From the NCBI RefSeq assembly GCF_013912375.1, contig NZ_JACETV010000001.1, forward strand, positions 1,178,001-1,242,000: a DNA stretch of 64,000 bases, given 5' to 3'. The notes under the pieces were generated by a model. That model made no database searches. It saw only the letters and a program-made list of their open reading frames with translations, and had not been told where the DNA came from. Positions 46,722 through 49,902 of this stretch are shown piece after piece (the stretch's first letter is position 1; each line of letters opens with the position of its first letter). The translations under genes were made by a program, and so were the position numbers. Source of the DNA: Emticicia sp. BO119 (lineage in GTDB: Bacteria; Bacteroidota; Bacteroidia; Cytophagales; Spirosomataceae).

Positions 46722-47033
46722 TCAATCGGTAATTGTACGGGGATTTACTTGCAGACGGATTCTTGGTTTTTCGGTCGGGGCGGGTTTAAACTGAATAAAC
46801 CAGGCAAGAATTTCGTCCATCACAGTCATATTCAAAGAATAATAAATAAACTGTCCCTTTTTTACAGAGGCTACCAGATCAGCCTGTTTCAGTAAGTCGA
46901 GGTGATGAGAAATACTTGGTTTGGTCATGTCGAAGCGTTCAGCAATGTCGCCAGCAGTCATATCGCCGTCTTTAAGCATCTCTAAAATTTCACGGCGAGT
47001 AGAGTCGTTTAATGCTTTAAATAAATTATTCAT
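46722..47033 (-). CDS. ArsR-family repressor (SdpR-like)
   Basis: The 103-residue winged-helix protein has the ArsR core NLFKALNDSTRREILEMLKD, GDIAERFDMTKPSISHHLDLLK and ASVKKGQFIYYSLN, in this order. It closely follows the autorepressor SdpR subgroup (no metal-ligand cysteines). A longer frame begins 33 bases up, but the ATG at 47033 gives the canonical N-terminus. It is 43 bases before the SdpI-like gene, so it forms an operon with it. In Bacillus SdpR represses the pair until SdpI, engaged by toxin, captures it at the membrane. Divergent from the thrA leader. Confidence 0.9.
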   Translation of the reverse strand: MNNLFKALNDSTRREILEMLKDGDMTAGDIAERFDMTKPSISHHLDLLKQADLVASVKKGQFIYYSLNMTVMDEILAWFIQFKPAPTEKPRIRLQVNPRTITD

Positions 47034-47061: not shown

Positions 47062-47199
47062 AACAAATGTTAAGGTACGAATTAATGAATAAATTCTGGA
47101 ATATTCAAATTTTATTGCTTAAATATTTAGATAATCTTCTAAATGGAAGTTAGATAGCCGAGACAATTCTTTGAAAAACACAATTTTATAGCTTAATAC

Positions 47200-47229
47200 C
47201 TTGAAATCGTATATAAATCATTATATTTG
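47200..47229 (+). promoter_or_regulatory. thrA promoter
   Basis: CTTG (47200-47203), an 18-base spacer, then TATATTTG (47222-47229): a good match to the Bacteroidota consensus. Transcription should start near 47235, giving a leader of about 205 bases. The 409-base gap up to 47033 holds this, the terminator at 47251-47283 and no coding frame. Confidence 0.6.
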
Positions 47230-47250
47230 CAGACACTTCATCAATATACA

Positions 47251-47283
47251 ACCCCATTCTTAACAGAAGTGGGGTATTTTTTT
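47251..47283 (+). terminator. Intrinsic terminator inside the thrA leader (candidate attenuator)
   Basis: ACCCCA-TTCT pairs with AGAA-g-TGGGGT: 10 bp with one bulged G and a TAAC tetraloop, followed by ATTTTTTT. It starts about 16 bases after the predicted transcription start and points toward thrA. No plus-strand gene lies upstream whose end it could serve, since the neighbour is the divergent SdpR gene. Confidence 0.75.
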
Positions 47284-47442
47284 AAGAATACAAGCAATGA
47301 TGGTTTGGGAATAAAAGCGGTTTAACGGGTTGCGAATTAGTGAATATCTGAAAAAAATAATTTTTAACGATACTAAAAACCATACTGCAATTATTTGTTT
47401 ATCATTCGCCGTTCATCATTAATTACTCAATGATTTAAGATA

Positions 47443-49902
47443 ATGAAAGTTTTAAAATTTGGAGGTACTTCTGTAGGAACAGTAGAAAGTATAAATCAGG
47501 TTATTCAGATTATCAAAGAAAACCTTGATGAGGGCCTTAAAATTGCAGTAGTATATTCTGCGATGGGTGGGGTAACCAACCGTCTGATTGAAGTAGGAAA
47601 AATGGCATCTGCCTCAGACCTTGAGTATCTGGAACAGCTCCGCACATTAGAAGAACGCCATTTTAATGCGGTGAGAGGTCTTATAGATATAAAAAATCAA
47701 AGCGGAGCAATTGCTAAGGTTAAAGGCTTATTCAATGAACTTGAAGACTTGTTAAGGGGTGTTTTCCTGATTAAAGAGTTATCTTTACGTACCCTTGATT
47801 TGATAGTTAGCTTTGGAGAAAGGTTATCAACTACAATCATCACAGAAACACTTAAGAACAGGGGCATTGATGCGGAATTTTTAGATTCACGTAAGGTAAT
47901 AAAAACCAACGATGTATTTGGATATGCAGATGTGAATTTTGAATTAACAAATGAACTGATCCGCAAGCATTTTGCCCAGACTAATAAACTGCAATGTATT
48001 ACCGGATTTATAGGTTCTACAATTGACGGAGTAACAACAACCCTTGGTCGGGGTGGCTCCGATTACTCTGGTTCTATTTTTGGTGCAGCCCTGAACGCAG
48101 CGATTATCGAGATATGGACTGACGTAAACGGAATGATGACAGCAGACCCTCGTAAGGTAAAAAATGCTTTTACAATACCAACCATTACTTATGCAGAGGC
48201 AATGGAATTATCGCACTTCGGAGCAAAAGTAATCTATCCCCCAAGCCTGACACCCGCTTTTTATAAGAATATCCCAATCAAGATTCTGAATACCTTTGAT
48301 CATAAGCATACGGGAACTTTTATAAGTAAAACTGCTGAAACCAAAGAGTATTCAATTACCGGAATTTCGTCTATTGACGATATTGCTTTGGTAAACCTGC
48401 AAGGAGGCGGAATGATTGGAGTAGCAGGTATCTCTGCCAAATTGTTTTCCATTCTGGCAAAAAATAAAATCAGTGTTATTCTTATTTCTCAGGCATCATC
48501 AGAACATTCCATCTGTTTCGCAGTAGATCCAAAATCTGCTTATGGTGTAAAAGAAATATTAGAAGAAGGGTTTGCCACTGAAATAGCACAAGGACTACTC
48601 GATAATATAACTATAGAACAAAACTTATCGGTGTTGGCAGTAGTAGGAGAGGGCATGAAGTCGAGTTCAGGTATTTCAGGTAAATTATTCTCTGTACTCG
48701 GTAAAAACGGTATTAACGTTGTTGCTACAGCTCAAGGCTCGTCAGAGCTCAATATATCTGTAGTTATCTACAAAAAAGATATTGGCAAAGCCCTGAACGC
48801 CATACATGAAACATTCTTTCAGGTTGATGGTCTTACTCTCAATCTGTTTTTAGTGGGTGCTACCGGGTTAATAGGTAGTACGCTTTTACGCCAGATTCGT
48901 GAGCAAAGAGATTATCTGAAATCACGCAAGAATCTTAATATCAGGTTGGTAGGTATTACCAATACCAGAAAAATGCTTTTAGATGAAACTGGAATTAGCC
49001 TTGAAAACTGGAAAGAGGAATTATTAGAAAATGGTGAAATTGCAAATATTGGTTCATTTATATCTGATGTACAGGATTTAAACCTACCTTATAGTGTATT
49101 TGTGGATTGCACCGCTGACAAAAATATTGTACAATACTATTATTCATTGCTAAGTGCCAGCGTTTCAATTGTAACTCCTAATAAGGTAGCCAATTCAGGT
49201 AAGTTCGAACAGTATTTTATGTTGCAGAAAGCAGCCCAAAAGCATGGAGTAAAATTTCTGTACGAAACGAACGTAGGGGCTGGTCTGCCAATTATCAATA
49301 CTTTACAAGGCCTGATAACCAGCGGCGATAAGATTCATAAAATTGAGGCGGTATTATCCGGTACATTGGCATATATCTTCAATAATTTCAAGTCAGGTGA
49401 CAGGTTTGTGGATGTGGTTCGTGAAGCCAAAGCCAAGGGTTATACCGAGCCTGATCCAAGAGATGATTTAAGTGGACAAGATGTTGCACGGAAAATATTG
49501 ATTTTATCAAGAGAATGTGGTTTGAAATTAGAGCCTGATGATGTGAAAATCATTAATCTGTTGAATGACGCTTGTCTGCAAGCAAAAACGGTTGATGAGT
49601 TTTTTGTGGAGTTAGAAAAAGATAACAGCAGATTTGAAAAACTCCTGGCAGAAGCAGAAGCAAAAGATGAAGTACTAAGATACATAGCAACTTTAGATGA
49701 AGAAAAGGTGACTATTGAGCTGAAAACCGTTGGACGTACGCATCCATTCTTTAATCTGGCAGGTTCAGAAAATATTGTTTCTTTTACAACCGAGCGTTAT
49801 AAACACAATCCACTGGTTATAAAAGGACCCGGTGCAGGAGCAGAAGTAACGGCCTCTGGTGTTTTTGCAGATATCATGAGCATTAGTAGCTATTTGGTGT
49901 AG
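47443..49902 (+). CDS. thrA: Bifunctional aspartokinase/homoserine dehydrogenase
   Basis: The fused enzyme catalyses the first and third steps from aspartate to threonine, methionine and isoleucine. The 819 residues show the kinase start LKFGGTSVGTVES (residues 4-16), ITGFIGS and GRGGSDYSGSI, two ACT domains (~315-460; SVILISQASSE and INVVATAQGSSELNIS) for allosteric control, and the homoserine dehydrogenase with LFLVGATGLIGSTLL (NAD site, ~465), ETNVGAGLPII and DPRDDLSGQDVARKIL. The length fits E. coli ThrA. No thrB or thrC follows, so it is a single gene ending at a terminator. Its leader has a premature terminator. Confidence 0.97.
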   Translation: MKVLKFGGTSVGTVESINQVIQIIKENLDEGLKIAVVYSAMGGVTNRLIEVGKMASASDLEYLEQLRTLEERHFNAVRGLIDIKNQSGAIAKVKGLFNELEDLLRGVFLIKELSLRTLDLIVSFGERLSTTIITETLKNRGIDAEFLDSRKVIKTNDVFGYADVNFELTNELIRKHFAQTNKLQCITGFIGSTIDGVTTTLGRGGSDYSGSIFGAALNAAIIEIWTDVNGMMTADPRKVKNAFTIPTITYAEAMELSHFGAKVIYPPSLTPAFYKNIPIKILNTFDHKHTGTFISKTAETKEYSITGISSIDDIALVNLQGGGMIGVAGISAKLFSILAKNKISVILISQASSEHSICFAVDPKSAYGVKEILEEGFATEIAQGLLDNITIEQNLSVLAVVGEGMKSSSGISGKLFSVLGKNGINVVATAQGSSELNISVVIYKKDIGKALNAIHETFFQVDGLTLNLFLVGATGLIGSTLLRQIREQRDYLKSRKNLNIRLVGITNTRKMLLDETGISLENWKEELLENGEIANIGSFISDVQDLNLPYSVFVDCTADKNIVQYYYSLLSASVSIVTPNKVANSGKFEQYFMLQKAAQKHGVKFLYETNVGAGLPIINTLQGLITSGDKIHKIEAVLSGTLAYIFNNFKSGDRFVDVVREAKAKGYTEPDPRDDLSGQDVARKILILSRECGLKLEPDDVKIINLLNDACLQAKTVDEFFVELEKDNSRFEKLLAEAEAKDEVLRYIATLDEEKVTIELKTVGRTHPFFNLAGSENIVSFTTERYKHNPLVIKGPGAGAEVTASGVFADIMSISSYLV

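Follow-up and report, generated by a model that had tools for sequence, protein, structure and literature searches.

The window analysed here, a stretch of 64,000 nucleotides from the 6.57 Mb genome of Emticicia sp. BO119, carries between the promoter and the start codon of thrA what its sequence, predicted fold and conservation identify as a real, selected, short attenuator-like terminator. Placed about 50 nt from the RNA start, with neither a leader peptide nor a strong antiterminator, such a selected terminator would be a minimal attenuator, and little on RNA-level control of amino-acid synthesis in Bacteroidota was found in the literature searched. We give about an even chance to the reading that thrA is under transcription attenuation without a leader peptide, by a promoter-proximal terminator inside its own transcription unit. 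The features of the locus are the following.

46722-47033, minus strand: divergent gene for an SdpR/ArsR-type regulator, upstream neighbour of thrA
47176-47187, plus strand: AAACACAATTTT, block 5' of the promoter, invariant in an alignment of the four species that have the terminator
47201-47229, plus strand: thrA promoter, with TTG at 47201-47203 (weak -33 part) and the -7 box TATATTTG at 47222-47229, from the sequence and the family leaders
47233-47241, plus strand: ACACTTCAT, where the RNA is expected to begin, without change in the same alignment; contains CACTTC (47234-47239), complementary to GAAGTG (47266-47271)
47252-47283, plus strand: predicted intrinsic terminator (sequence, fold, conservation), with stem 47252-47259/47266-47274, bulged G47269, loop 47260-47265 and tail 47275-47283
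47284-47442, plus strand: spacer from the terminator to thrA, 159, 303, 94 and 70 nt long in the four species and not alignable
47443-49902, plus strand: thrA, bifunctional aspartate kinase/homoserine dehydrogenase I, 819 aa (NCBIfam NF006959, 1029.9 bits, cut-off 726), start codon ATG at 47443

The hairpin is made up of the arms CCCCATTC (47252-47259) and GAAGTGGGG (47266-47274) around the loop TTAACA and is followed by TATTTTTTT, the tail comprising T47275, A47276 and seven T at 47277-47283. It begins 22 bases past the -7 box, and the RNA is predicted to fold at -11.9 kcal/mol (z -3.17), a value that none of 200 dinucleotide-keeping shuffles equalled. The sequence and coordinates of promoter, hairpin and tail given in the preliminary description of this locus are confirmed, together with the GC-rich stem, its bulged G, the U-tail and a remaining leader of about 160 bases (159 by our count). 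A simple terminator scan of the window did not pick up this terminator, probably owing to the bulged G. In a background sample of 864 kb of the genome (the window plus 40 further stretches), one rule returned 398 terminator-like sites. Of these, 22 have TAnnTTTG within 60 nt upstream, and five of the 22 also have an upstream TTG, lie outside a long frame and stand before an ORF; TATATTTG occurs among the 22 only at thrA. The arrangement of promoter and terminator at thrA is beyond chance, and rare in this genome.

For the Bacteroidota, the available part of PMC7366714 gives TAnnTTTG as the -7 consensus. Upstream of thrA, a -7 box TATATTTG or TATCTTTG is present in 69 of 70 family leaders, and TA[TC]nTTTG is found within 370 nt of the gene in 134 of 136; in 12 loci of the latter scan (mostly of genus g13) the start was placed 3-6 bases 5' of the real ATG, and distances to the ATG are short accordingly, and at L140 two leader scans picked different -7 boxes. 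Because the box recurs so widely, the promoter 5' of the terminator is, as judged from these leaders, the ancestral thrA promoter of the whole family. The good promoter first described is thus borne out in its -7 box, whereas its -33 part is weak and shifts in position between relatives. The RNA start is inferred to lie at about 47233-47236, 4-6 bases past the -7 box, which places the stem 16-19 bases from the start, close to the 16 bases originally estimated. Between the stop and thrA no better second promoter was found, one-mismatch -7-like sites being at least as common in base-composition shuffles. Since the family promoter precedes the stop and no better one follows it, thrA would be reached by read-through. 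Further upstream, an inverted repeat ATTTAGA-N6-TCTAAAT (47125-47144), in part kept among relatives, lies between the SdpR/ArsR-type gene and thrA, and is a possible operator for the divergent regulator.

Conservation of the hairpin in relatives, which the preliminary description had proposed as a check, holds for part of the genus: hairpin and tail occur once each in four of 11 Emticicia genomes, always upstream of thrA, but are absent from the other seven even at three mismatches. The closest named relatives by thrA are Emticicia sp. C21, Emticicia agri and Emticicia sp. 21SJ11W-3, with protein identities of 93-96%. At four-fold sites of thrA, 57-66% of positions differ when the window is compared with the remaining three terminator species, and 57-68% across the six possible pairs, which is near saturation. 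On a thrA tree of 16 rows the four terminator species cluster together; a single change is needed there, and support is 87/99, hence not full. The loop varies in four of its six positions in their alignment; the stem is invariant across all four sequences and offers no varying pairs for covariation. None of the 26 columns that make up the arms, the bulge and the tail shows a change, and the spacer cannot be aligned; on this comparison, conservation thus covers the hairpin with its tail, the 5' end, the promoter and the block 5' of it, and the remaining leader is free. By the same alignment, hairpin and tail are under selection in one Emticicia clade.

A conserved intrinsic terminator between a promoter and its gene is the general mark of an attenuator, and is what is found at this locus. 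Under peptide-less attenuation, RNA polymerase would start near 47233-47236 and, no more than about 50 bases on, run into the hairpin with its U-tract. Transcription would then either end near 47283, releasing a short RNA, or continue across the spacer as far as thrA; how often it continues would set the level of thrA expression. The stop would have to be active in the cell and its efficiency to respond to a signal, and a possible switch is the 5'-end pairing CACUUC/GAAGUG, aided or blocked by a trans-acting factor. In the thrA leader, neither a ligand site nor a protein site was recognised, and by eye the same terminator was not seen at thrB or thrC.

Ribosome-mediated attenuation had been judged unfitting at the outset, and the leaders examined here agree with that judgement. 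As had been noted, no start codon (ATG, GTG or TTG) lies between the -7 box and the hairpin of the window; neither the short frames starting in or after the hairpin nor the one pre-hairpin TTG frame, found in E. agri only, contain a Thr run, and a Thr-rich short ORF occurs in none of the 70 family thrA leaders tested. Between 46000 and 48000, no Rfam riboswitch or attenuator, including the covariance model of Thr_leader (RF00506), gave a match up to an E-value of 5. A different picture is seen at the thrA loci L053-L110, mostly of Mucilaginibacter, Pedobacter and Sphingobacterium, where a simple rule detected a Thr-rich leader ORF in 49 of 58, the strict terminator rule a terminator in 27 and both together in 20. 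The Thr/Ile-rich leader peptides in this set lie about 100-350 nt upstream of thrA and are accompanied by GCCTTCCTCC-type terminators. The one locus tested against Rfam, the Mucilaginibacter thrA leader L068, scored 40.7 bits with Thr_leader, under the gathering score of 55.

The preliminary description had seen no complement that could act as an antiterminator. There is in fact a candidate: the CACUUC at the start of the RNA is complementary to GAAGUG in the 3' arm, so that the G bulged out of the terminator stem would be paired too. This pairing is weak, at -5.3 kcal/mol compared with -11.9 for the terminator. When the RNA is folded at increasing lengths, the pairing is best at 38-40 nt, the terminator winning from 41 nt onwards, and three relatives behave similarly. 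A 5' match of this length arose in 386 of 20,000 base-composition shuffles. A 5' motif resembling ACACTTCAT is also present in leaders without this terminator (L123; Spirosoma), and the CACUUC segment may therefore be kept for another reason. As an antiterminator, the 5' switch is a weak hypothesis.

The weakness of this pairing, together with the lack of a ligand-binding fold and of any Rfam family (E up to 5), speaks for a constitutive leaky terminator, which would merely fix a lower thrA expression and leave the sensing of threonine to the enzyme itself. We regard this as rather unlikely, given that the 5' segment and the bulged G are invariant at saturated divergence, a constraint beyond what a plain hairpin calls for. 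Distinctly unlikely in our view is that the product of the thrA promoter is a trans-acting sRNA of about 50 nt, with the hairpin as its terminator and thrA transcribed via read-through. The unit would indeed suit an sRNA in having a promoter, an invariant 9-nt 5' end, an invariant stem with a variable loop and a U-tract, followed by an unconstrained spacer; yet it is always upstream of thrA and nowhere else in the genus, its pairing with the thrA start region is not special, and the complement ATGAAGTG is found at the starts of 0 of 707 ORFs. The thrA start region and ORFs starting with ATGAAGTG are accordingly unsupported as sRNA targets. That the hairpin is a 5' stabiliser or repeat remnant and not a functional terminator, as the CCCC/GGGG hairpins recurring in the thrA leaders of other Emticicia might hint, is highly improbable, since it is single-copy even at three mismatches (and is rejected as a repeat), the CCCC/GGGG repeat is unmatched in the window's genome and a stabiliser has no need of an invariant U-tract.

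In other Emticicia (L115-L117, L119-L121, L033-L039), the CCCC/GGGG element itself is a repeated hairpin that follows the thrA promoter and precedes the start codon, lying directly 5' of the ATG in several of these leaders. A 22-mer of it has 35 matches, allowing up to one mismatch, in nine of 11 Emticicia genomes, and none in that of the window.

Across the family, a terminator no more than 90 nt from the -7 box was counted in 10 of 134 thrA leaders and three of 30 genera, against 1.70 leaders and 0.40 genera in dinucleotide-keeping shuffles. This count excludes L260 and L264, two leaders in which the rule recognised no -7 box; the arm scans described below took their last 120 bases. The ten comprise six of 11 Emticicia leaders, both of genus g16 and two of 12 of g13. 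The matches in Emticicia L120 and L121, which are CCCC/GGGG repeats having a short U-run, and both of those in g13 are borderline. An excess of structure throughout the family was rejected for the 60 nt past the -7 box, the fold z (from shuffles that keep dinucleotides) averaging -0.20 over the 66 leaders that do not belong to the four-species clade, of which four fall below -2; even in the terminator species 21SJ11W-3, z is 0.10 in this span. The two g16 leaders, L127 and L128, have another promoter-proximal terminator upstream of thrA, again without a leader peptide; the loop ACTTGTAA of the L127 terminator displays the Thr anticodon, and that of L128 does not. A block resembling CATCAACGGCTTCCTGATTA is conserved in Spirosoma-type thrA leaders (for example L146, L156, L200-L206 and L215), some 10-30 nt past the -7 box. 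At L240, a locus of the window's own genome, on the minus strand at about 2841-2811, a hairpin AGGACGATT...AATCGTCCT upstream of thrC abuts a -7 box TATATTTG.

In sister genera the thrA leader holds hairpins of another kind. The anticodon arm of tRNA-Thr has a 5-bp stem and a 7-nt loop with U at position 33, the anticodon UGU and A at position 37. The hairpin CTGCT-GTTGTAA-AGCAG, found in thrA leaders of g2, g6 and g36, is one that we take to have the shape of a tRNA-Thr(UGU) anticodon arm by this general geometry; the 41 stretches scanned held no tRNA-Thr. Exact copies of this 17-mer number nine in 222 genomes, all of them in thrA leaders (five of five genomes in g2, one of one in g6 and three of eight in g36). 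In the remaining five g36 genomes the 17-mer is missing even at one mismatch, an argument against an element common to all of g36. With one mismatch, 22 matches lie outside thrA leaders, among genomes with thrA coordinates at hand (all but G119 and G171), and a reversed control pattern gave three matches. The loci with such arms are:

L153, L157, L159, L246-L249, L263, L264 and L300-L311: thrA leaders with a Thr arm upstream of thrA, from the arm scans
L326, L334, L336, L338, L340 and L342: thrS upstream regions with a Thr arm upstream of thrS, from the arm scans

In g13, the thrA leaders have a hairpin 6-9 nt past the -7 box with varying stems and a fixed loop GTTTGTAG, the loop being present in 12 of 12. 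Among its 10 distinct sequences, 88.9% of the cells pair (80.4% in shuffles), two-sided changes are seen in 10 cells (2.8) and the covariation score is 0.420 (0.201), values reached by none of 500 shuffles for any of the three, although the close relatedness of the rows means that this comparison overstates the case. Weaker measures are the three pairs with two-sided changes (81 of 500 shuffles) and the 10 further pair types (16 of 500); the best slid version of the hairpin pairs in 54.4% of cells, with a score of 0.168.

A strict arm scan for every anticodon found Thr arms in 21 of 136 thrA leaders, where shuffles that keep base composition only give 0.62; like all arm counts here, this one is inflated by the relatedness of the genomes. 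All other anticodon types together gave 11 against about 8.9. The Thr arms fall into g13 (11), g2 (five), g36 (three), g6 (one) and g5 (one), the single g5 arm being probably due to chance. Upstream of thrS the strict scan yielded Thr arms in four of 19 regions (g5, g36, g2 and g6) against 0.18, with seven of other types against about 3.4. A relaxed scan, run with no shuffle control, found thrA arms in 12 of 12 leaders of g13, five of five of g2, three of three examined of g36, one of one of g6 and one of two of g16, with three more scattered. Equally without shuffle control, it found thrS arms in seven of 19 regions (g2 2/2, g36 2/2, g6 1/1, g5 1/1, g22 1/1), and none in g13 (0/3), g16 (0/2), g32 (0/1), g28 (0/1) or Emticicia (0/5). 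For 24 genera, nothing was found in the search for Thr arms in thrA leaders. Rfam gave no match on five Thr-arm loci except a microRNA model on the opposite strand of L263, which was taken as chance. Within Emticicia, the strict scan detected no Thr arm in 11 thrA leaders or five thrS upstream regions, and the window's thrA and thrS have none in the relaxed scan; a relaxed arm in one of the 11 thrA leaders (L114, loop TGTAGTAAT) is probably a chance occurrence.

The motif shared by g2, g6 and g36 may have one origin and that of g13 another. The arms suggest that threonyl-tRNA synthetase controls thrA in these genera, and thrS too in g2, g6 and g36, with the hairpins as putative operators. If true, a tRNA synthetase would regulate a biosynthetic gene via tRNA mimicry, and thrA and thrS would form one regulon in three genera. 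Across related lineages the thrA leader carries a leader peptide (loci of the Sphingobacteriales type), a tRNA-like hairpin or a bare terminator, and it appears to be a place where control at the RNA level changes. A tentative wider reading, to which we assign slightly less than an even chance, is that RNA control has been reinvented at the thrA leader of the Spirosomataceae: threonyl-tRNA synthetase would bind an arm mimic at thrA in g2, g6, g13 and part of g36, and at thrS as well in g2, g6 and g36, while in the Emticicia clade of the window an early, peptide-less terminator would be read by a factor instead.

Among the matches listed in a search of titles and abstract beginnings in the open-access literature, no paper was found on a Bacteroidota thrA leader or on control of thrA by threonyl-tRNA synthetase, and the main text of PMC2965389 mentions neither Bacteroidetes nor threonine nor thrA. 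In E. coli, according to the available part of PMC7373986, threonyl-tRNA synthetase represses its own mRNA by binding mimics of the tRNA-Thr anticodon arm in the thrS operator. The likeness is confined to the sister genera, where arm-like hairpins lie upstream of thrS and thrA; these differ in that thrA is a putative target as well and in that the arms are known from sequence only. The window differs from the E. coli operator in having no such arm at thrA or thrS. Also in E. coli, ChiZ and IspZ are short terminated 5' UTR RNAs that have been detected and act as sRNA sponges, according to the accessible text of PMC7815308; what they share with the window is a leader RNA that starts at an mRNA promoter and is terminated, that of the window being a prediction from the DNA alone. 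The Thr_leader of E. coli (RF00506; thrL) differs from the window, which has no leader peptide or Thr/Ile codon run, a far shorter leader and no Rfam match; what the two have in common is an intrinsic terminator between the promoter and thrA.
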